DNA from: Solobacterium sp.
GTDB lineage: Bacteria; Bacillota_I; Bacilli_A; Erysipelotrichales; Erysipelotrichaceae
Reading direction: 5' to 3'
DNA: 64,000 nucleotides
NCBI GenBank assembly: GCA_017512725.1
Contig: JAFWEW010000022.1
Span: 62,001-126,000, forward strand
Part shown: piece after piece, positions 7,265-16,001 of the stretch
Numbering within the stretch: position 1 is the first letter of the stretch
Layout of the letters: each line of letters opens with the position of its first letter
The notes under the pieces: generated by a model
What the model saw: only the letters and a program-made list of their open reading frames with translations
Databases searched by the model: none
What the model was told of the DNA's origin: nothing
Translations under genes and position numbers: made by a program

Positions 7265-8107
7265 TTAAATATCCTCCTCTTCTTCAACAGCAACTGCTCC
7301 GCCCTTCTTAGCCTCCAGAGCATTCATCTTCATCTGGTAGTTAATGAGTGCGAATACAGCAGCAACCGCTGTAGCAGCAATCAGTGTCAGACCCATGGAA
7401 CGAGCCAGTGTGAAACCGAAGATGTAGTAAATCAGATCGGTCGGCTTCGTAACGACGGAGTTGAGCAGGATGCCCATTCCGACTGCAGGCAGCATGGAAC
7501 CAACAGTGAAGAGAGCCTTCATGTACCAGGAATCCATCGGCAGAGCTTCACGGAATGTGTAAACTGCCTGGCTTCCATAGTGGTTGATCAGCATAACCGG
7601 GATGAAGGAGATAACGATATGGGAGATGATCGGCATCCATGTTTCAACAGATGTCAGGATCTTGAAGTTCCCCTTATCGAGTTCAGCCCATCCAATGTGC
7701 TGCCAAATGAGGTTCATAACGGCTGTTCCATAGAACTGGACAGTACCGACTGTACCTACGAGAGCACCCATTGCGCCGGCAATACCTTCTGCTTCAGCAC
7801 TGTCGAGTGCCAGACCCTGGCTCTTCGCAGTAACGTAAGCAAGAGGAATACCAATGTAAGATACGGCGCGGAGGTCAGCAGCAACTGTTCCTCCAGGTGT
7901 AACGAGAGCGATGTAGATAATCTGCATCGGAATCGCGATCTGAATGCAGCCCTTGACGTCGCCCATGATAAGGCCAACGAACAGGGAAGCAATCAGAGGA
8001 CGGTTCAGAGTGTAGTTACCAACTGTTGTACCCAGGCACGCGATGGTGGATGCCGCAAGCATGGACATGACACCGAGCATTGCTGCCTGGAACCAAGAAA
8101 TTGTCAT
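7265..8107 (-). CDS. PTS mannose-family transporter subunit EIIC
   Basis: 280 residues. Polytopic membrane subunit that carries the sugar across the membrane. The N-terminus MTISWFQAAMLGVMSML and the motifs NRPLIASLFVGLIMGDVKG and TPGGTVAADLRAVSYIGIPL are typical of the family. The tail ends in a run of glutamates. An AAAGGGG ribosome site precedes the ATG. A 190-base gap separates it from EIIB, unusually wide for this operon type, and contains two hairpins. Confidence 0.95.
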   Translation of the reverse strand: MTISWFQAAMLGVMSMLAASTIACLGTTVGNYTLNRPLIASLFVGLIMGDVKGCIQIAIPMQIIYIALVTPGGTVAADLRAVSYIGIPLAYVTAKSQGLALDSAEAEGIAGAMGALVGTVGTVQFYGTAVMNLIWQHIGWAELDKGNFKILTSVETWMPIISHIVISFIPVMLINHYGSQAVYTFREALPMDSWYMKALFTVGSMLPAVGMGILLNSVVTKPTDLIYYIFGFTLARSMGLTLIAATAVAAVFALINYQMKMNALEAKKGGAVAVEEEEDI

Positions 8108-8196
8108 AATCTAAACCCCTTTCAGTTTTAATGACACTATCTATCACAACCCGAGACTTCTTCTCCCCAAAGCACCCTGGTCATGAACATTTTTAG

Positions 8197-8259
8197 GCAG
8201 CCAGAATACCTGACTGCAGAGAAATAATACCGCCGTAAGTCCTTCCCGAATCCGGAAGG
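8197..8259 (-). other. Two intercistronic hairpins between EIIB and EIIC
   Basis: On the minus strand, CCTTCC/GGAAGG (8241-8259) lies 38 bases after the EIIB stop, and GCAGTCAG/CTGGCTGC (8197-8217) follows. Neither has a T tract, so they are not classic terminators. mRNA processing or stability control is a plausible role. Confidence 0.5.
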
Positions 8260-8297
8260 CTTTCAATTATCCGGCGGCAAGCACATCATTTCCGTTC

Positions 8298-8792
8298 TCA
8301 GTTGAAACCGAACTGACCGCGGAACTTCGGCCACTCACCGATCGCTGTCTCACGAACGAGCGCGAATGTGATTGTGTAGCCCTTCTTATAAATCTTTTCG
8401 AACGCTTCTGCTTCTTCCTGAACGATCGACTGGTTGTTGCCGAGCTTGACTGCTCCCGGACGGTCGTTGCACGGTCCGACGATGAGTTCTTTGACATCAT
8501 TCGGTACAAAGTTGTTGTCGACCAGAATGGTGCACATGTCGATCGGGTTCTTTGTGATCAGGAAGTATTTCTTCGGACTCTCACGAACCTTCTGAGCATT
8601 CTCGAGGAAGTGCTCCATTGTCCAGATGAATACCTTCTTCTCTGTGGAAGCGACAAAACTCTGCTTCAGAACCGGAGTCGTAGCGGCTTTGTCATTTACC
8701 GCGATGATGCCGTCACAGGGATATTCCTTAGACCAGCGGGTAATAATCTGACCGTGGATGATACGGTCGTCGACACGCATAAATGTGATCAT
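8298..8792 (-). CDS. PTS mannose-family transporter subunit EIIB
   Basis: 164 residues. Cytoplasmic phosphocarrier that accepts phosphate from EIIA and passes it to the incoming sugar. The active-site block RVDDRIIHGQI places the phosphohistidine at residue 13. The remainder (FVPNDVKELIVGP, GYTITFALV) matches the EIIB fold, and the length is normal for a stand-alone domain. AAGGAGG lies 14 bases before the ATG, a little far; the fifth codon is also ATG, so the true start could differ by four residues. Confidence 0.95.
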   Translation of the reverse strand: MITFMRVDDRIIHGQIITRWSKEYPCDGIIAVNDKAATTPVLKQSFVASTEKKVFIWTMEHFLENAQKVRESPKKYFLITKNPIDMCTILVDNNFVPNDVKELIVGPCNDRPGAVKLGNNQSIVQEEAEAFEKIYKKGYTITFALVRETAIGEWPKFRGQFGFN

Positions 8793-8844
8793 AAATTAGT
8801 TCTTATCCTCCTTACTATGATTACACTGTTGTGTTGAGTCCAAA

Positions 8845-9276
8845 TCAGATGTCGTCGTCCGAATCTGCTTCTGCAACGGTCTTGAATTCTGCCACTGCAG
8901 TCTGCGCTTCGGAAAGGATCGCATTCTTGAGGGATTCCAGATCATCCATTGCATCCTTCATGATGATAGCGGTCATGGCCATCGGCATGTTCATGCCGGT
9001 CAGAACCAGGGAGCGCTCAAGAAGATTCTTTTCAGAGAGAACCTCAAGCGACTTTGTCATCGGGCTTCCGCCAAGGATGTCGCAAAGAAGAATGACCTGA
9101 TCGTCATCGCCAATCGGCTTTACCAGTTCACGGAAGTTTTCCTGGAACTGATCCGCACTCATGTCAGCGCGCAGATTGGTGCAGAGAACCTCGTCTTTCG
9201 GTCCGGTCATCATGAAGACAGCGGTCCGAAGTCCCGGCGCAAAATCTCCATGACTTACCATTACAACATATTTCAT
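8845..9276 (-). CDS. PTS mannose-family transporter subunit EIIA
   Basis: 143 residues. Cytoplasmic phosphocarrier that takes phosphate from HPr. The N-terminus VVMVSHGDFAPGL carries the phosphohistidine at residue 9, and LCDILGGSPMTKSLEVL is a conserved EIIA block. The start ATG has AAGGAG 5 bases upstream; an in-frame upstream ATG is rejected. It is the first gene of the EIIA-EIIB-EIIC-EIID operon, behind a promoter with a cre-like box. Confidence 0.93.
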   Translation of the reverse strand: MKYVVMVSHGDFAPGLRTAVFMMTGPKDEVLCTNLRADMSADQFQENFRELVKPIGDDDQVILLCDILGGSPMTKSLEVLSEKNLLERSLVLTGMNMPMAMTAIIMKDAMDDLESLKNAILSEAQTAVAEFKTVAEADSDDDI

Positions 9277-9335
9277 TTTCTTCTCCTTCGGAAGCTCGGG
9301 CATCTCTGCCGGGAACGCTTCCATAGCTGTCTACT

Positions 9336-9428: not shown

Positions 9429-9758
9429 TTAAATATACTTCGACAGCAGCCAGAACAGCAGTGCTCCAAGAAGCGGGATCAGAAACAAAAAGGAATAAGA
9501 ACCAAGAACTTTCCGCTCCAGTTTTGCCCATGCCGCCTCAGAAAAATAGTACCGCTCGTCCTCCGTGCGGACTACAACCTTTTCTTCCATCATGTTGGCA
9601 ATCGTATAGGCAAGCACCTGCGTCGTGAGTTTGATATTTTTCAGCTGGTCATATCCGACGGCATGTTCCTCATCCACTGCCCCGACTTTGCGCAGATAGC
9701 GGATGACTGCCTGCCCTGCTGTCTGACGGCCGTTGACACGTTTTGTGCTTTCCGACAT
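9429..9758 (-). CDS. Small protein with winged-helix-like N-terminus and C-terminal membrane anchor
   Basis: 109 residues, no family recognised. Residues 1-80 look like a compact helical/winged-helix fold ending in a beta pair (EKVVVRTEDERYYFSE). Residues 87-106 (SYSFLFLIPLLGALLFWLL) are one hydrophobic segment at the very C-terminus, so the protein is probably tail-anchored with its body in the cytoplasm. Its ATG overlaps the TAA of the preceding gene, so the two are translated together. Function unknown. Confidence 0.65.
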   Translation of the reverse strand: MSESTKRVNGRQTAGQAVIRYLRKVGAVDEEHAVGYDQLKNIKLTTQVLAYTIANMMEEKVVVRTEDERYYFSEAAWAKLERKVLGSYSFLFLIPLLGALLFWLLSKYI

Positions 9759-10321
9759 TATTTCTTTCCCTTCTTTTCCAGTTTCTTTTCTTTCTTTGCC
9801 TGACGGTACTTCTCATATTCATCATGCAGAAGAAGACCCATTTCTCTGGAAACCGTAAAGGTTCCCTGTGTCGTCACAACATCCACCACGCGCTGTACGC
9901 CGCGCTTCTTCGGATCCATGGAGACAACGCTCTTCCACGGGATCACAGCGCTCTCAATTACGATCGCTTCCGGTCCGACCAGTGCCGAACGCTTGACGAT
10001 CGCAACGACCATCTGTCCAAACAGGATCAGAGCCACGAAGAAATACGCCATCCGGAACCACTTGAGCTGTTCCAGCGACGGATCCACATTGATGACGGAA
10101 TAAACACAGAAGATACAGAACGAACCGAACAGTATTGCCCAGCCCCAGAACTGGTTCACATGTCTGGCAGAATCTTTACCGTATTTTTCGTAATACTTCT
10201 TTCTTGCAAGAATGTAGCCTCTGGCAAACTTGAATGCGCTCCAGAGATAGTAAATGGCGTAGATACCAAATCCGACACACAGGATGATAAAAAACGCCTC
10301 TGAATTGATTAGATTGAACAT
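9758..10321 (-). CDS. Membrane protein with PH-like cytoplasmic domain
   Basis: 187 residues. Hydrophobic segments at about 10-32, 58-78 and 88-108 are followed by a beta-rich stretch of about 70 residues (GPEAIVIESAVIPWKSVVSM, TTQGTFTVSREMGLLLHDEY) resembling bacterial PH-type (YdbT/DUF304-like) modules, and a lysine/glutamate tail. A GGGGAG-type site lies about a dozen bases upstream. It forms a two-gene unit with the tail-anchored protein downstream. The 60-base gap to the isomerase gene upstream holds a weak hairpin only. Function unknown. Confidence 0.6.
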   Translation of the reverse strand: MFNLINSEAFFIILCVGFGIYAIYYLWSAFKFARGYILARKKYYEKYGKDSARHVNQFWGWAILFGSFCIFCVYSVINVDPSLEQLKWFRMAYFFVALILFGQMVVAIVKRSALVGPEAIVIESAVIPWKSVVSMDPKKRGVQRVVDVVTTQGTFTVSREMGLLLHDEYEKYRQAKKEKKLEKKGKK

Positions 10322-10381: not shown

Positions 10382-12091
10382 TCATCCGCGCACATATGCA
10401 CGAAGCACTTTGATTTCTTCTCCGGCCGTTTCGATCCGCACTCTGCCAAGAGATGCCGGAAGAATAAACGTCTCCGCATAATGGACCTCAAACGGCTCAA
10501 AACTGCCCTCCGGACTGACGATCATTGCGGCAGTTCCGTCCACCAGATTGCACATACTGACGGTCCCGTTCAGATCAAATTCAACTGCATCGCGGACCGT
10601 GTACCGTCTTGTCTCAATGAATTCCAGTTCATGAAGACCGGTATGTTCTTCCTTCACTCCGTCCGCATCCCGGACGGTTTCAAACCGGTCGACCAGATGG
10701 TCCATGACCCAGTCGGTTGTCCGGTTCCACTGGATGACTTTGCTGCCGTGCTCGATGTTGATCGGCCGCGGCTTTCCGTCAAGACCAAGTCTGCCCCAGT
10801 CCCACAGCTTAAAGGTAAATATATATGGAGTTGCACTGATTTCAAGTACCATGGCATTTCTGCCCGAACAATGGATCGTGCCGGCCGGGATCAGAAAATG
10901 ATCATGTTTTTTGGCCGGAATCTTATTCACGAACTGCTCCGCATCGAAACTGCCGGTTTCCTGCGCTTCCTTCAGAGCACCGATCATATCCTGCGGTTTC
11001 GTTCCGGTCTTCACGCCCAGATAAACACAGGCATCTTCCTTCGCATCCAGAATGTAGTAGCTTTCATCCTGTGTATAGGACATCCCGAAGGAACGTCTGA
11101 TGTAATCCGTCAGCGGATGTACCTGCAGACTCAGATTCTGTCCGTCAATGGTATCCAGGAAGTCAAAGCGGATCGGAAATTCCGCACCGAAGCGGGCATA
11201 GTTCTTTTCCCCCAGAAACGGACGGGGCTGATACAGGGTCAGATCCATTGTCGGAATCTCGACATCTGTACTTCCGAACCGCAGCAGAAGCGAATTCTCT
11301 TCCGGTACACCGTCAAAGGACCATGCGTAGTTTGGCTTATCCGGATCCAGATTGCACTTTTCCTTCATCCACTGGCCGCCCCATACGCCCGGATCAAAAT
11401 ACGGTACGAGCCGGAACGGGCGGTGTGCCGCTTTGCACAGTGCATCCCGGAACGCTTCCCCCGTGATCATCTTCGGATCATTCTGGGCATTGGTATCGAT
11501 CAGATAATCAATCTTATCAAACAGACCCATCTTGATGCGGTCCGCAAAGCGCCATTCCACAAAATAGCCGCGCTTGTATTTCCGGAGAATATCCTCATCA
11601 TAGTTGGAACAGTTATAGTTTCCCATGCCGGCCCGGTAACGCAGCTGGATCTCCCAGCGGGCAAGATCAAAGTAGACGATCAGCCCTTCCTCCAGAAGCA
11701 GCGAAGCCCCAACCCCATAGATGATCACAAGTCCGTCTGCTTCACGGATTCTCGCCTTCGCCGCTGTTACCTGATCCTCGTCCAGAAACGCTTCCGCTCC
11801 GCCGTAATACATCCGGCCGAACACCCGGTCATCCGTAAGCCACGGTTCCATCCGGCGTGTCATTTCTGCTTCGTCCGCATAAAGCTCCAGCATATTGATA
11901 AAGCAGGACGGGTTCAGCTTCATGAGCTGCGGAATAATCTCCCCGTCTTTTACTCCCGGATAAGTCTCAGCAATCAGTACGGGCCTTTCCCCCTTCAGCT
12001 GATCAGCAAGTGTGCTGAGGATTGCTTCATATCCGCGTACCGGCTCTTCGTCACTGACGGTGATATGCGGGAAACGGTCATAATTACTCAT
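10382..12091 (-). CDS. Class I mannose-6-phosphate isomerase-like protein with extra N-terminal domain
   Basis: 569 residues, longer than an ordinary class I PMI (300-400). Residues 1 to about 225 form an extra domain of unknown role with a YGVGASLL block and an aromatic DLARWEIQLRYRAG segment; there is no Walker A motif. Residues from about 230 match the PMI cupin: QVHP at 323-326, E343, FLIPAGTIHCSG with H407, and VLEIS at 415-419, so the metal ligands appear to be kept. The start overlaps the stop of the upstream isomerase fusion by 8 bases (ATGAGTAA). Interconversion of mannose-6-P and fructose-6-P is likely but not certain; another hexose-phosphate is possible. Confidence 0.8.
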   Translation of the reverse strand: MSNYDRFPHITVSDEEPVRGYEAILSTLADQLKGERPVLIAETYPGVKDGEIIPQLMKLNPSCFINMLELYADEAEMTRRMEPWLTDDRVFGRMYYGGAEAFLDEDQVTAAKARIREADGLVIIYGVGASLLLEEGLIVYFDLARWEIQLRYRAGMGNYNCSNYDEDILRKYKRGYFVEWRFADRIKMGLFDKIDYLIDTNAQNDPKMITGEAFRDALCKAAHRPFRLVPYFDPGVWGGQWMKEKCNLDPDKPNYAWSFDGVPEENSLLLRFGSTDVEIPTMDLTLYQPRPFLGEKNYARFGAEFPIRFDFLDTIDGQNLSLQVHPLTDYIRRSFGMSYTQDESYYILDAKEDACVYLGVKTGTKPQDMIGALKEAQETGSFDAEQFVNKIPAKKHDHFLIPAGTIHCSGRNAMVLEISATPYIFTFKLWDWGRLGLDGKPRPINIEHGSKVIQWNRTTDWVMDHLVDRFETVRDADGVKEEHTGLHELEFIETRRYTVRDAVEFDLNGTVSMCNLVDGTAAMIVSPEGSFEPFEVHYAETFILPASLGRVRIETAGEEIKVLRAYVRG

Positions 12092-13580
12092 GTTTTTTTA
12101 CTTTGATTTCCTTTCCTTCCCGAAAAACGCGGAACCCAAATGGCTGAGCCGCTACTGCGTCATAATTGTGTCCTGCAATCGGAGGCCATACCGCACGTAC
12201 TTTCATCGGTATTTCCCCGGTATTGATCAGCCGGTGCGCAAGATTTCCGCGGATATGATGCACGCTTCCCGGGAAAACCTTTTCACACCAGGTAAGCCCG
12301 TTATGGTCCATTAACATGAGCAGACCGGTACCGGCCTGTCCCTCATAGACTTCTTCAACCGTTTCATCCTCATGCCAGTGCCCTTTCGTGAATGCACATT
12401 CCCCATTGACCGTCACCGGATACACTGTTGTGACCCCATAGGACAGCGATCCCGGAACAGAAGCGTCCCCGTTGTCGCACTGCACCTCATACAAAACGGT
12501 TTCCGGATCCACACCGGAAGGATCCAGGAAGTATTCGGCAATCTCCTTCAGATGCTTGGTACCGTATGTAATCTCCGCATCACTGCGCATTACCGAAAAA
12601 TCCTCGGTATACTTCGGTTCTTCAATGCACATTACAGAGCGCGGTTTCGGCGTTCCGACAAGCAGCCGGCAGTCTCCGCTGATCACAAGGTCCCCACAGG
12701 ATGCCGGCAGGAAGACCGATTCGGTATAACCAAGTTCGGTAGTTCCTGCTTCATCACGAATAACGCAGCTGCCGCTGACACAGGACAGTGTACGGAAGGT
12801 CTCCGGATGTGCCTTCAGCGTACAGGAACCGCAGACATCCATCAGATCGACAGAATATTCCGGAAAATCCGCAACCCGTTTTTCCTTTGCGGTATGATCG
12901 ACAGGTGTGTGAATACAGGTCCCTTTCTGGCCAAAGCAAACGACATCGATACTTTTATCAATATGGAGCGGTCTCTCGTTTCCTTCCGCATCTTTGCGGT
13001 GATAGTCATAGAACCGATACGTCGTATTGGAATTGGTGCCGATCTCCAGTGCCAGGATCCCGGCTCCAAGCGCATGCAGGGTCCCGCTCGGCACCAGCAC
13101 AAAGTCTCCTTCCGTTACCGGAATGCGGTAAAGATGATCCTCAATCGTTCCGTCCGCGATCGCAACGCGGATCTCCTGTGCAGACTGGAAATCCGAACCT
13201 GCGACAAGGGATGCCCCCTCATCCGCATCGAGAATGTACCAGGCTTCCGTCTTGCCGTGATCGGCTTCATGCGCCTGCGCATACACCTCTCCTGGATGTA
13301 CCTGTACAGACAGCGAATCCTTCGCATCCAGAAATGCTGCCCGCAACAGATCCTGATCCTGTATCTCCCTGCCAAGAAGCGCATCATGTGCAGTCTCAGC
13401 AAGTTTCGCCAGGGTCTTCCCTGCATATTCTCCTTCGGAAACAACAGACTGTGCATAGGGATGGATACTGATCTCCCAGGCAGTTCCTTCCCCCTCTGCA
13501 GTTCTCCCGCGGATTTTGGAAAGCCGGTTTCCTGCCCAGATCGTTTTGTCATAAATCGGATGTACTTTAATCGGTCTCAT
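12084..13580 (-). CDS. Fusion of mannose-6-phosphate isomerase and cupin-type glucose-6-phosphate isomerase
   Basis: 498 residues. Residues 1 to about 320 are a class I PMI: QVHP at 93-96, E112, VPSGTLHALG with H169, then LEIGTNSNTTYRFYDYHR. Residues about 330 to 498 match the cupin glucose-6-phosphate isomerase otherwise best known from Pyrococcus: GHWH (H401, H403), E410 seven residues on, and AHR with H449; this H-x-H-x6-E-x38-H spacing equals that of the archaeal enzyme as I recall it. The end PPIAGHNYDAV is also typical. One polypeptide could thus take mannose-6-P via fructose-6-P to glucose-6-P. AAGGGGAAGGAA precedes the ATG; it sits between the GntR gene (19 bases) and the PMI-like paralogue (overlap). 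Confidence 0.88.
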   Translation of the reverse strand: MRPIKVHPIYDKTIWAGNRLSKIRGRTAEGEGTAWEISIHPYAQSVVSEGEYAGKTLAKLAETAHDALLGREIQDQDLLRAAFLDAKDSLSVQVHPGEVYAQAHEADHGKTEAWYILDADEGASLVAGSDFQSAQEIRVAIADGTIEDHLYRIPVTEGDFVLVPSGTLHALGAGILALEIGTNSNTTYRFYDYHRKDAEGNERPLHIDKSIDVVCFGQKGTCIHTPVDHTAKEKRVADFPEYSVDLMDVCGSCTLKAHPETFRTLSCVSGSCVIRDEAGTTELGYTESVFLPASCGDLVISGDCRLLVGTPKPRSVMCIEEPKYTEDFSVMRSDAEITYGTKHLKEIAEYFLDPSGVDPETVLYEVQCDNGDASVPGSLSYGVTTVYPVTVNGECAFTKGHWHEDETVEEVYEGQAGTGLLMLMDHNGLTWCEKVFPGSVHHIRGNLAHRLINTGEIPMKVRAVWPPIAGHNYDAVAAQPFGFRVFREGKEIKVKKHE

Positions 13581-13599: not shown

Positions 13600-14316
13600 T
13601 TATTTTCGGTAACGGACGGTCAGTTCATAATCGTCCGCAATATATATGACTAATGAATACTCCACCGGAATTTTCCCGCAGGATCCGGATCGCTGCCTAC
13701 GCATGATCACTTTCGGTTCCTTCAGTTCCAGCAGCTGTTCCTCCTCCTTATCGGACAAAGAAGAAGTAAACCGCTCGGTAATCTCCGTAATCGGATATCC
13801 CGCCTGGCTCAGTGTTTCATACAGAGAGCCGTTAAAATCCATCCGGTCATCAATCCCGAGCGTGGGATTGAGGTAGGACTTATGATTCGATACCGGTTTT
13901 CCTTCCACATACAGACGGCGTACCAGCGTCAGTACCGGCTGGCGTTCCGGGGTGCCGAAGAACGAAGAAGCCGCAGCCGGCGGAATTTCATAAGAAACGG
14001 AAATCACTCTTCTGTCCCTGCGGTCATTGAATTCCCCGATAATCGTTGTCTGCAGAGTGGTCGAAGTATTCCTGCGGCGCGGATTGATGATCGTTCCGCT
14101 GCCTCTGCGGCGGATAATATATCCTTCGTTCATCAGACGTTCCATTGCCTTGCGGATCGTAACTCTTGAAAGCGAAAATTCACTCATGAGTTCCGATTCG
14201 GTTGGAAGATTCATTCCTTCCGGATAGCGGTTCTGTTCGATCCGCTCTCTGAGTATCTCATAGAGCTGGCTCCACAGCGGTTTCTGACCGGTTTTCTTTT
14301 CAAGCATGACTGTCAT
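13600..14316 (-). CDS. GntR-family (HutC/UTRA) transcriptional regulator
   Basis: 238 residues. N-terminal winged helix-turn-helix (residues about 12-75: PLWSQLYEILRERIEQ, LPTESELMSEFSLSRVTIRK, GSGTII) and a C-terminal UTRA ligand domain (RLYVEGKPVSNHKSYL, VIMRRQRSGSC, PVEYSLVIYIADDYEL). UTRA regulators usually sense a sugar phosphate. The start ATG follows GAGGAAT; a 9-codon upstream extension is rejected. It heads the operon with the two isomerase genes, so it most likely controls them. A 14-bp palindrome lies in its upstream region. Confidence 0.9.
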   Translation of the reverse strand: MTVMLEKKTGQKPLWSQLYEILRERIEQNRYPEGMNLPTESELMSEFSLSRVTIRKAMERLMNEGYIIRRRGSGTIINPRRRNTSTTLQTTIIGEFNDRRDRRVISVSYEIPPAAASSFFGTPERQPVLTLVRRLYVEGKPVSNHKSYLNPTLGIDDRMDFNGSLYETLSQAGYPITEITERFTSSLSDKEEEQLLELKEPKVIMRRQRSGSCGKIPVEYSLVIYIADDYELTVRYRK

Positions 14317-14351
14317 CGGATTCCTCACAAAAAGATAATACAATTTATGTT

Positions 14352-14365
14352 AATGTTATAACATT
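14352..14365. promoter_or_regulatory. Perfect palindrome upstream of gntR
   Basis: AATGTTATAACATT reads the same on both strands. It lies 36 bases upstream of the gntR ATG in the divergent gntR / HTH-dehydrogenase intergenic region and is a candidate operator. Confidence 0.6.
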
Positions 14366-14471
14366 TCACGGAGAAAAAGCATTAAATTTCCGGAAAAGCC
14401 TTCCCTTTTCTTCTGTTTGTGTTATTATCCGGGTGTTTAACGGAATATATTTCTGCGTTTTTTGAATATTT

Positions 14472-14488
14472 TGTTGTTTATAACAACA
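14472..14488. promoter_or_regulatory. Inverted repeat upstream of the HTH-UDP-glucose dehydrogenase gene
   Basis: TGTTGT-TTATA-ACAACA, a perfect 6-bp inverted repeat with a 5-base centre, ending 13 bases before the ATG and just upstream of the ribosome site. It shares the TGTT...ATAACA core with the palindrome at 14352. Confidence 0.6.
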
Positions 14489-14501: not shown

Positions 14502-16001
14502 ATGAAGAAACTATCTGCCGCAAAACTGGCCGGGACCGTAGTAACCCTGCGGAAAAAACAGGACATGACACAGCTTCAGCTGGCTCAGGCCGCCGGCATG
14601 AACAGGTCGATGCTGAGCAGACTGGAATCCGGAGAATACACCCCTTCAATTGATCAGCTTCAGTCCCTGGCTTCCGTTCTGGGATTTGATCCGACGGATA
14701 TGTTTGAAGAACAGCCGTCAGAGGATCCTGAACCCGTCCCTGATTCCTTCTGCATTGCTGTCGCCGGTACCGGCTATGTCGGTCTTTCCCTGGCGGTGCT
14801 GCTGTCTCAGCACAACCAGGTAACCGCGGTTGATATTCTGGAAGACAAAGTCCATAAACTGAACCAATATATCTCCCCGATTCAGGATGAATATATTGAA
14901 CAGTATCTGAAGGAAGCCCGGGAAGGAACACGGAAGCTGAACCTTTCTGCCACGACGGATGGGGCCGCTGCCTATGCGGATGCGGATTTTGTTATCATAG
15001 CCGCACCGACCAACTATGATCCCACACTGAATTTCTTTGACTGTTCCGCAGTGGAATCCGTAATCGAACTGATTCTTTCCAGTACGGAGAACCGGATGGA
15101 TAAGCCTTTGATTGTTATCAAATCCACGGTGCCGGTCGGATTCACTGCGTCCATGAGGAAACGCTTCCGCTATGAAAAGATCATTTTCTCTCCGGAATTC
15201 CTCAGAGAATCCAAAGCTCTGTATGACAATCTCTATCCTTCCCGCATTATTGTCGGCTGTGATGCACATACCCGGAAAGAGGCCGAATGCTTTGCCGCAC
15301 TGCTGCAGCAGGGGGCATTAAAGAAACCGGTCGAGACGATTCTCATGGGTTCCACCGAGGCAGAAGCGACCAAACTGTTTGTAAATACCTACCTTGCCCT
15401 GCGCGTCTCCTACTTTAACGAACTGGATACGTATGCAGAAATCAAGGGGCTTGATACGGCTTCCATCATCCACGGCGTCTGCCTCGATCCGAGAGTCGGT
15501 GACTACTACAACAACCCCTCGTTCGGCTATGGCGGCTACTGCCTCCCGAAAGATACTAAACAGCTTCTTGCAAACTATCAGGATGTACCGCAGAACCTGA
15601 TCCGTGCAATCGTGGAAAGCAATGCCACACGCAAGGATTTCATAGCGGACCGGGTGCTTCAGAAAGCAGAGTATTACAGCTATACCGACAACCGTTACAG
15701 CAAGACCAAAGAAAAAACCGTCACTGTCGGCATCTACCGCCTGACCATGAAGGCCAACTCCGACAACTTCCGGCAGTCTTCCATTCAGGGTGTCATGAAG
15801 CGGATCAAAGCAAAAGGCGCTTCCATCATTATTTATGAACCGACACTGGAAAACGGAAGCACCTTCTTCGGAAGTGAAGTTGTCAATCATCTGAAACGCT
15901 TCAAAAAGCTTTCCGACTGTATTATTGCCAACCGCTATGATTCTTCGCTGGATGATGTGAAGGACAAGGTTTATACCCGCGATATCTTCCAGAGAGACTG
16001 A
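14502..16001 (+). CDS. UDP-glucose 6-dehydrogenase with N-terminal Cro/C1 HTH domain
   Basis: 499 residues. Residues about 8-65 are a complete XRE-type helix-turn-helix ([38 protein letters not shown]). Residues 82-499 are a full nucleotide-sugar dehydrogenase: NAD-binding GTGYVGLS at 89-96, STVPVGFT near 208-215, FSPEFLRES near 229-237, and [10 protein letters not shown] with catalytic Cys347 and Lys350. The enzyme part would oxidise UDP-glucose to UDP-glucuronate; ManNAc is a less likely substrate. Domain order HTH-dehydrogenase suggests a metabolic enzyme that also binds DNA, with the inverted repeat before its start as a natural target. GGAGGTC precedes the ATG. Confidence 0.9.

Follow-up and report, generated by a model that had tools for sequence, protein, structure and literature searches.

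Two palindromes between a gntR operon and an HTH-fused UDP-glucose dehydrogenase gene: putative operators of two divergent transcription units

Two palindromes, pal1 and pal2, lie in the gap between a gntR gene on the minus strand and an HTH-ugd gene on the plus strand of a Solobacterium genome, and we consider it probable (at roughly 70%) that they are two unrelated operators, one for each of the divergent transcription units. Within this reading we are confident that pal2 acts as an autoregulatory operator of the XRE-fused UDP-glucose dehydrogenase HTH-Ugd, while pal1 is probably, if with less assurance, the operator of the GntR regulator that heads an isomerase/PTS operon. The novel part would be that a DNA-binding UDP-glucose dehydrogenase is widespread and comes with conserved putative operators of its own; among the papers listed in our searches of the open-licence literature we found none describing an XRE-UDP-glucose dehydrogenase fusion.

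The intergenic region and its two palindromes

The gap of 158 nt is AT-rich, with 31% GC compared with 50% across the window (the whole 64-kb stretch of DNA analysed). pal1 (14352-14365, no strand assigned), AATGTTATAACATT, is a perfect 14-bp even-centred palindrome with a GT-N4-AC core and the probable operator of the GntR/UTRA regulator. pal2 (14472-14488, likewise without strand), TGTTGTTTATAACAACA, reads TGTTGTT-TAT-AACAACA and is a 17-bp putative operator of the XRE head of HTH-Ugd; its division into 7-bp arms around a 3-nt centre is slightly better than the 6-5-6 description given previously. The earlier note had reported two palindromes here, with differing centres and near opposite start codons, and all of this is borne out, with pal1 even-centred and pal2 odd-centred, pal2 ending 13 nt before the HTH-ugd ATG (14502) and pal1 ending 35 nt short of the probable start codon of gntR (ATG, complement 14314-14316).

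As bare palindromes the two are unremarkable, as the window holds nine perfect 14-bp palindromes with pal1 counted in and ten perfect 7-3-7 palindromes with pal2 counted in, about one of each kind per 6-7 kb, and because neither kind is rare it is their conservation with the genes that exceeds chance. Both kinds fall within 158 nt at a single place in the window (22 of 63,842 start positions, 14330-14351). The window's genome contains one mismatch-free occurrence of each sequence; allowing up to two mismatches pal1 gives 12 forward matches against 13 for the reversed control, which is background, and allowing up to three pal2 gives 8 forward matches against 1 forward and 5 reverse for its control.

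A pal2-type site upstream of HTH-ugd genes

HTH-ugd (14502..16001, plus strand) encodes a 499-aa protein in which an N-terminal XRE (HTH_3) domain is fused to a UDP-glucose 6-dehydrogenase (Pfam HTH_3 at residues 16-65, with the UDPG_MGDP_dh N, central and C domains). The HTH_3 match is clear (PF01381, E 4.5e-14, 52.6 bits against a cut-off of 23), and an AlphaFold2 model places helices at residues 6-19, 24-31, 35-42, 50-60 and 64-67 in a five-helix fold that is confidently predicted (block pLDDT 93-97 over residues 11-60), the dehydrogenase part of the model being weak in places with 74 residues at pLDDT < 50, for which reason we read no arrangement of the domains from it. For the enzyme we take the catalytic set to be Thr118/Glu141/Glu145/Lys204/Asn208/Cys260/Asp264 in S. 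pyogenes UGDH numbering; the equivalents in HTH-Ugd, counted by hand on an alignment, are T209, E232, E236, K291, N295, C347 and D351, all invariant among 30 aligned sequences, and together with the three dehydrogenase domains they identify a UDP-glucose 6-dehydrogenase. In NCBIfam the subfamily model TIGR03026 scores above its cut-off and the equivalog NF011631 below (523.5 of 757 bits), and the best 50 of 1822 Foldseek matches are UGDH-type structures. S. pyogenes UDP-glucose dehydrogenase (1dlj) is 54% identical in the Foldseek alignment and has the same catalytic residues, but it has no XRE head. Because of this identity and the retention of the catalytic residues, HTH-Ugd probably works as an enzyme in addition to binding DNA.

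In order to define the site we used upstream regions of up to 250 nt, dropping duplicate upstreams and loci with less than 150 nt upstream, and the resulting 54 distinct HTH-Ugd fusion genes yielded one 17-bp odd-centred motif, TGTYRYTNNNARYRACA, of which pal2 is a member. At a score of at least 10 the motif is present in 44 of the 54 fusion upstreams and in none of 44 HTH-less Ugd homologues, and in six-fold cross-validation it is recovered in 43/54 fusions against 0.9% of mononucleotide shuffles. The later loci (41 fusion rows, of which 9 were removed as duplicates of the first set) gave a similar picture, with the motif in 22 of 32 fusions at a score of at least 9.5 and in 0 of 13 HTH-less controls at a score of 10. 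In both sets a conserved putative operator of the gene's own thus depends on the presence of the DNA-binding domain, as is expected of a trigger enzyme or autoregulator, and the assignment of pal2 to the HTH-dehydrogenase is well supported by these counts. Forty-three sites are centred at -40 to -20.

The site is absent in 10/54 first-set and 10/32 later fusion loci, including one of Streptococcus suis (L105) and one of Enterococcus (L103); among the ten later misses three have in common a strongly divergent recognition helix, [VI]PLRSYKRL, and ISRIILGKM is present in a fourth. One of two Streptococcus suis loci lacks the site and the other has a weak one, and two sites each are found at the plasmid HTH-ugd genes of Butyrivibrio fibrisolvens, Enterococcus faecalis and E. 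hirae. The family ranges over Lachnospiraceae, Erysipelotrichales-like and Ruminococcus-like bacteria and Enterococcus, plasmids too. The plasmid-borne genes of Butyrivibrio and Enterococcus (L231, L232, L233), both Enterococcus cases near transposase genes, are annotated merely as 'nucleotide sugar dehydrogenase', and plasmid carriage may help explain part of the patchy spread of HTH-ugd.

An exact match to TGTYRYTNNNARYRACA occurs once in the window's 2.7-Mb genome, and that match is pal2. In 26 genomes the exact pattern was found at 44 places in 20 genomes, the other 6 having no match; 22 of these places are upstream of HTH-ugd genes (14 genomes) and 22 are elsewhere, compared with 35 for the reversed control. 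The single match in the window's genome and the number of places elsewhere set against that control make a single-target autoregulator the simplest reading of HTH-Ugd. A wider HTH-Ugd regulon is not claimed, as the 22 places outside HTH-ugd upstreams stand against a control of 35.

The sister genome G028 carries the HTH-ugd/DAGK block (L030), the DAGK gene coming after HTH-ugd as it does in the window, with another upstream gene, and there a pal2-type site lies 10 nt before the ATG and pal1 is absent upstream. Among 138 loci searched with the GntR protein (many with flanks of 1.5 kb) none but the window's own showed a GntR relative beside HTH-ugd, and conservation was judged on relatives in which the gntR and HTH-ugd blocks lie apart, instead of on a kept gene order. 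That GntR reads both palindromes and controls both operons is hard to credit: divergent GntR-family genes can share double sites, as the accessible part of PMC4494728 describes, but pal2-type sites also precede HTH-ugd in many genomes where a different gene lies upstream of it, and they are missing where the HTH is missing.

The codons of residues 34-42, which include R35, S36 and L38, lie at 14601..14627 (plus strand) and cover the recognition helix, placed by AlphaFold2 at 35-42, so that residues 35-38 form its predicted start; we take S36 to align with the base-reading Gln29 of the 434 repressor. Across loci, base 5 of the operator half-site is G where residues 34/36/38 are N34-S36-L38, and otherwise A. 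This rule was drawn up with the first set already in view, and it fits 38 of the 39 informative first-set loci and 13 of 15 later ones (51/54 overall), the exceptions being L056, L194 and L197; loci usable for it were 39/54 and 15/32, the others having been dropped for having no site scoring at least 12 or for a tie. By eye it also fits all three plasmid loci, two of which are near-identical. S36 ranks highest among 499 columns when leave-one-out and later-set accuracies are summed, a ranking from which L056, which is short and among the three exceptions, was also left out, and on the later loci alone it scores 0.73 against 0.93 each for Q54 and the dehydrogenase column L176. There are four well-supported independent pairs, all in the direction of the rule (4:0, p = 0.125). 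Mutual information was dropped as a proof of the helix-base link, since relatedness confounds it and dehydrogenase columns rank high. Operator base 5 follows residues 34/36/38 across these loci, and shared relatedness is a further possible source of the association.

In 38 of 86 loci the proximal site is accompanied by a distal one, further upstream. The 45 proximal-distal spacings range from 42 to 174 bp, 18 of them at 125-134 bp with a mode of about 130 bp, and since the distal site is seen both with a divergent upstream ORF (L070, L068, L085) and with a co-directional one (L072, L076, L077) it is not simply the neighbour's operator. The best sigma70-like promoter, scored with no shuffled control, lies between both operators in 33/38 two-operator loci, its -10 mostly near -70. 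The spacings show weak helical phasing, with R = 0.28 at 10.5 bp and a naive p of 0.03 on 45 non-independent pairs, and 11 bp fits better. A third operator-like site, 32-33 bp or about three helical turns past the distal one, was noted at L078, L079, L084, L192, L194, L226 and L227. At the window's locus only the proximal site was found, with no second pal2-type site and thus no pair of operators on both sides of the promoter, and the same holds for the sister locus L030.

The candidate extended -10 of HTH-ugd, TGTTATTAT (14420..14428, plus strand), is the best site of our own scan and is preceded by a weak candidate -35, TTCCCT, at 14401-14406; L030 has TGCTATTAT at nearly equal distance. A stricter promoter scan did not return TGTTATTAT and gave a plus-strand site at 14310-14339 at the level of chance (1 found, 0.8 expected).

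With these positions in hand one can weigh the idea that pal2 is an RNA hairpin by the ribosome-binding site serving translation control. Its 27-nt RNA does fold into a 7-bp stem (-4.8 kcal/mol, z -2.0), but folding of the 81-nt leader is on a par with that of shuffled sequences (z -0.06), in 33/38 loci the predicted promoter comes after the distal copies, which would therefore be outside the RNA, and pal2-type sites are tied to HTH presence and sequence. We rejected the hairpin as highly improbable, its fold being unremarkable in its leader, and retain pal2 as the putative DNA operator of HTH-Ugd.

pal1 and the gntR operon

The first gene of the operon on the other side, gntR (13600..14316, minus strand), encodes a GntR/UTRA regulator in which Pfam finds the GntR winged HTH and the UTRA domain, both above cut-off (PF00392, PF07702), as in the HutC subfamily. 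It is followed on the minus strand by a type I mannose-6-phosphate isomerase fused to a GPI-type cupin (12084..13580, by domain search), a second manA-like protein of 569 aa (10382..12091) with a weak C-terminal TIGR00218 match below cut-off and no Pfam match at 0.001, and PTS EIIA, EIIB and EIIC of the mannose/sorbose/GalNAc type (7265..9324, by profile matches and gene order). The 569-aa protein is 72-75% identical in G028, G022 and G007. Between the isomerase and PTS genes, at 9429-10321, two small proteins of 187 and 109 aa are encoded, as they are in G022 and G007; neither has an NCBIfam match and that of 187 aa has no Pfam match either.

The operon order of gntR, both isomerase genes, small proteins and PTS genes is kept in G022 and G007 (the EIIB of G007 having been missed by the ORF filter), G028 has gntR with both isomerase genes, and in G001 the contig ends at gntR. 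The divergent neighbour of gntR in G022, G007 and G001 is not HTH-ugd, it encodes a protein with the start LVISDIHG that is presumably phosphoesterase-like. A pal1-like element (ATGTTATRACA type, in a block like AAATGTTATRACATTANGAYAAAAWGTATTG) was found upstream of gntR in 4/4 congeneric counterparts aligned, with HTH-ugd not adjacent; the palindrome is imperfect in G028 and G001, and the conserved block extends beyond it to GTATTG. Since the pal1 element persists at gntR loci with no adjacent ugd and the HTH-ugd of G028 keeps a pal2-type site without pal1, the two palindromes have been inherited with different blocks.

This bears on the earlier proposal that one regulator might link hexose-phosphate isomerases with UDP-sugar synthesis, for which HTH-Ugd would read both sites and use pal1 as a distal operator, tying isomerase/PTS expression to UDP-sugar supply. 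pal1 does sit where a distal operator would, its centre being 121.5 bp from that of pal2 and within the range of the relatives' distal-operator spacings, the two share TGTT/AACA ends, and weak binding to pal1 is conceivable. Against this, the half-site spacings differ by 7 bp (TGTT-9-AACA in pal2, TGTT-2-AACA in pal1), the HTH-Ugd operator matrix scores pal2 at 21.3 and pal1 at -4.6, the gntR loci retain the element without ugd and the sister locus L030 has no distal site. On matrix score, spacing and separated blocks we reject a single regulator and give the proposal little credence. The other suggestion made earlier, that of separate operators, stands well for pal2 and HTH-Ugd and fairly for pal1 and GntR, on the separated blocks and unlike geometry, the reservation being that the regulators sharing the element are not strictly orthologous to the window's GntR.

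pal1 reads GT-TATA-AC, an even-centred palindrome with GT and AC 4 nt apart, and so has the HutC-type spacing, for which the accessible part of PMC4494728 gives GT-N4-AC with a consensus core GTMTAKAC. In HutC-subfamily members such as NagR, as here, a GntR+UTRA protein heads a PTS/sugar-phosphate operon with a GT-N4-AC palindrome at its start; the core of pal1, GTTATAAC, departs from GTMTAKAC and binding to it is predicted. In a literature text search for TGTTATAACA no GntR or sugar-operon paper was evident by title among the matches listed. A candidate -10 of gntR, TATTAT (14335..14340, minus strand), was picked by eye and is unreported by the consensus scan, and pal1 likely lies over the -35 region of gntR.

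The ancestry of the regulators lowers the odds on pal1, because in a tree of 11 GntR proteins the window's GntR does not join the four that have the element: with support 100/98 it groups with a paralogue encoded elsewhere in the same genome and a relative from G010, being 54% and 52% identical to these and 48-49% identical to the four element-sharing proteins. In the winged-HTH part alone it is nearer the four (63-67% vs 56-59%). The element was not found at the closer paralogues (own-genome and G010) or at L024, L025 and L028, which argues that it follows the operon and not GntR ancestry. The tree does not bear out orthology between the four congeneric GntR proteins and the window's GntR. 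The gntR of this operon (window 13600-14316; L139, L149) seems to have been exchanged or shuffled, and in G028 a further GntR relative, which is partial, stands at a contig edge next to the small proteins, which there precede the PTS genes (L149).

It is accordingly conceivable, though a good deal less likely than not being so, that pal1 belongs to the isomerase/PTS operon as a promoter feature or as the site of another factor. The conserved block runs on to GTATTG, the element lies upstream of a good -35/-10 in G022 and G001 and not over them, and it tracks operon position while the nearest paralogues of the window's GntR do without it. On the other side, the GT-N4-AC spacing fits HutC regulators, extra half-sites 7-12 nt away are described for GntR sites in the accessible part of PMC4494728, and in its winged-HTH part the window's GntR most resembles the GntR proteins with the element. 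We take GntR as the likeliest reader of the element and regard pal1 as GntR's own site with fair support.

Proposed mechanism and relation to known systems

From the sequence alone we infer binding, repression, looping and an effector as follows. A dimer of the XRE head would bind pal2, 13 bp upstream of its own gene, making HTH-Ugd probably a bifunctional enzyme and autoregulator, that is, a trigger enzyme. In one ligand state it would sit on pal2, about 45 nt past the predicted start, and block its own transcription as a roadblock, with UDP-glucose, UDP-glucuronate or NAD(H) setting the DNA-binding state. In relatives with a second copy beyond the promoter two dimers could close a gal-like loop, the window having the proximal site only. 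GntR/UTRA on pal1, over the gntR -35, would control the gntR-isomerase-PTS operon. For the family as a whole, we see an even chance that XRE-headed UDP-glucose dehydrogenases regulate their own ugd or ugd-epimerase transcript through ligand-dependent binding at one or two operators, looping dimers and a residue-base code at 34/36/38.

The E. coli trigger enzymes BirA, NadR, PepA, PutA and PyrH are likewise metabolic enzymes doubling as regulators, and NadR has an N-terminal XRE-type head. HTH-Ugd differs from them in that its enzyme is a UDP-glucose 6-dehydrogenase and its apparent sole target its own promoter; PepA and PutA are described as single-target trigger enzymes in the accessible part of PMC8249747. 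In the E. coli gal operon the two GalR operators, OE at -60.5 and OI at +53.5, are 113 bp apart according to the accessible text of PMC4693257, and they flank the promoter as the two operators of HTH-ugd relatives do, mostly at about 130 bp; the gal regulator is of LacI type whereas here it would be an XRE-enzyme fusion, looping is a proposal and there is one operator at the window's locus. Autoregulation through palindromes is common among XRE proteins, 9/10 tested pairs having been bound (PMC12565409, accessible part), and HTH-Ugd resembles such repressors in that a palindrome precedes the gene of the regulator itself; the accessible main text of that paper contains none of the words dehydrogenase, TGTT and AACA.

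The committed enzyme of UDP-glucuronate supply appears to carry its own repressor domain, which if true would be a dedicated feedback switch built from the enzyme itself, with a readable residue-to-base code. The routes to many polysaccharides of capsule and wall start from UDP-glucuronate. In many gut and rumen bacteria regulation may be predictable from a single protein and the DNA upstream of its gene, and the paired protein/operator set would be a ready-made system for studying XRE recognition and enzyme-mediated looping.

In six of 25 loci with a readable next ORF (L060, L061, L072, L077, L093, L094) an NAD-dependent epimerase/dehydratase begins no more than 20 nt after HTH-ugd, and therefore the unit in these six may be a UDP-GlcA/UDP-GalA pair. 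At L083 a second, HTH-less UDP-glucose/GDP-mannose dehydrogenase directly follows HTH-ugd, and the ORFs after HTH-ugd at L078 and L084 match it in size and spacing. The HTH-ugd of [Clostridium] polysaccharolyticum (L090, 6001-7473) has one in-frame TAG in the dehydrogenase part, and one TAG is likewise listed for G889 (L213), whose upstream and protein duplicate those of L090.
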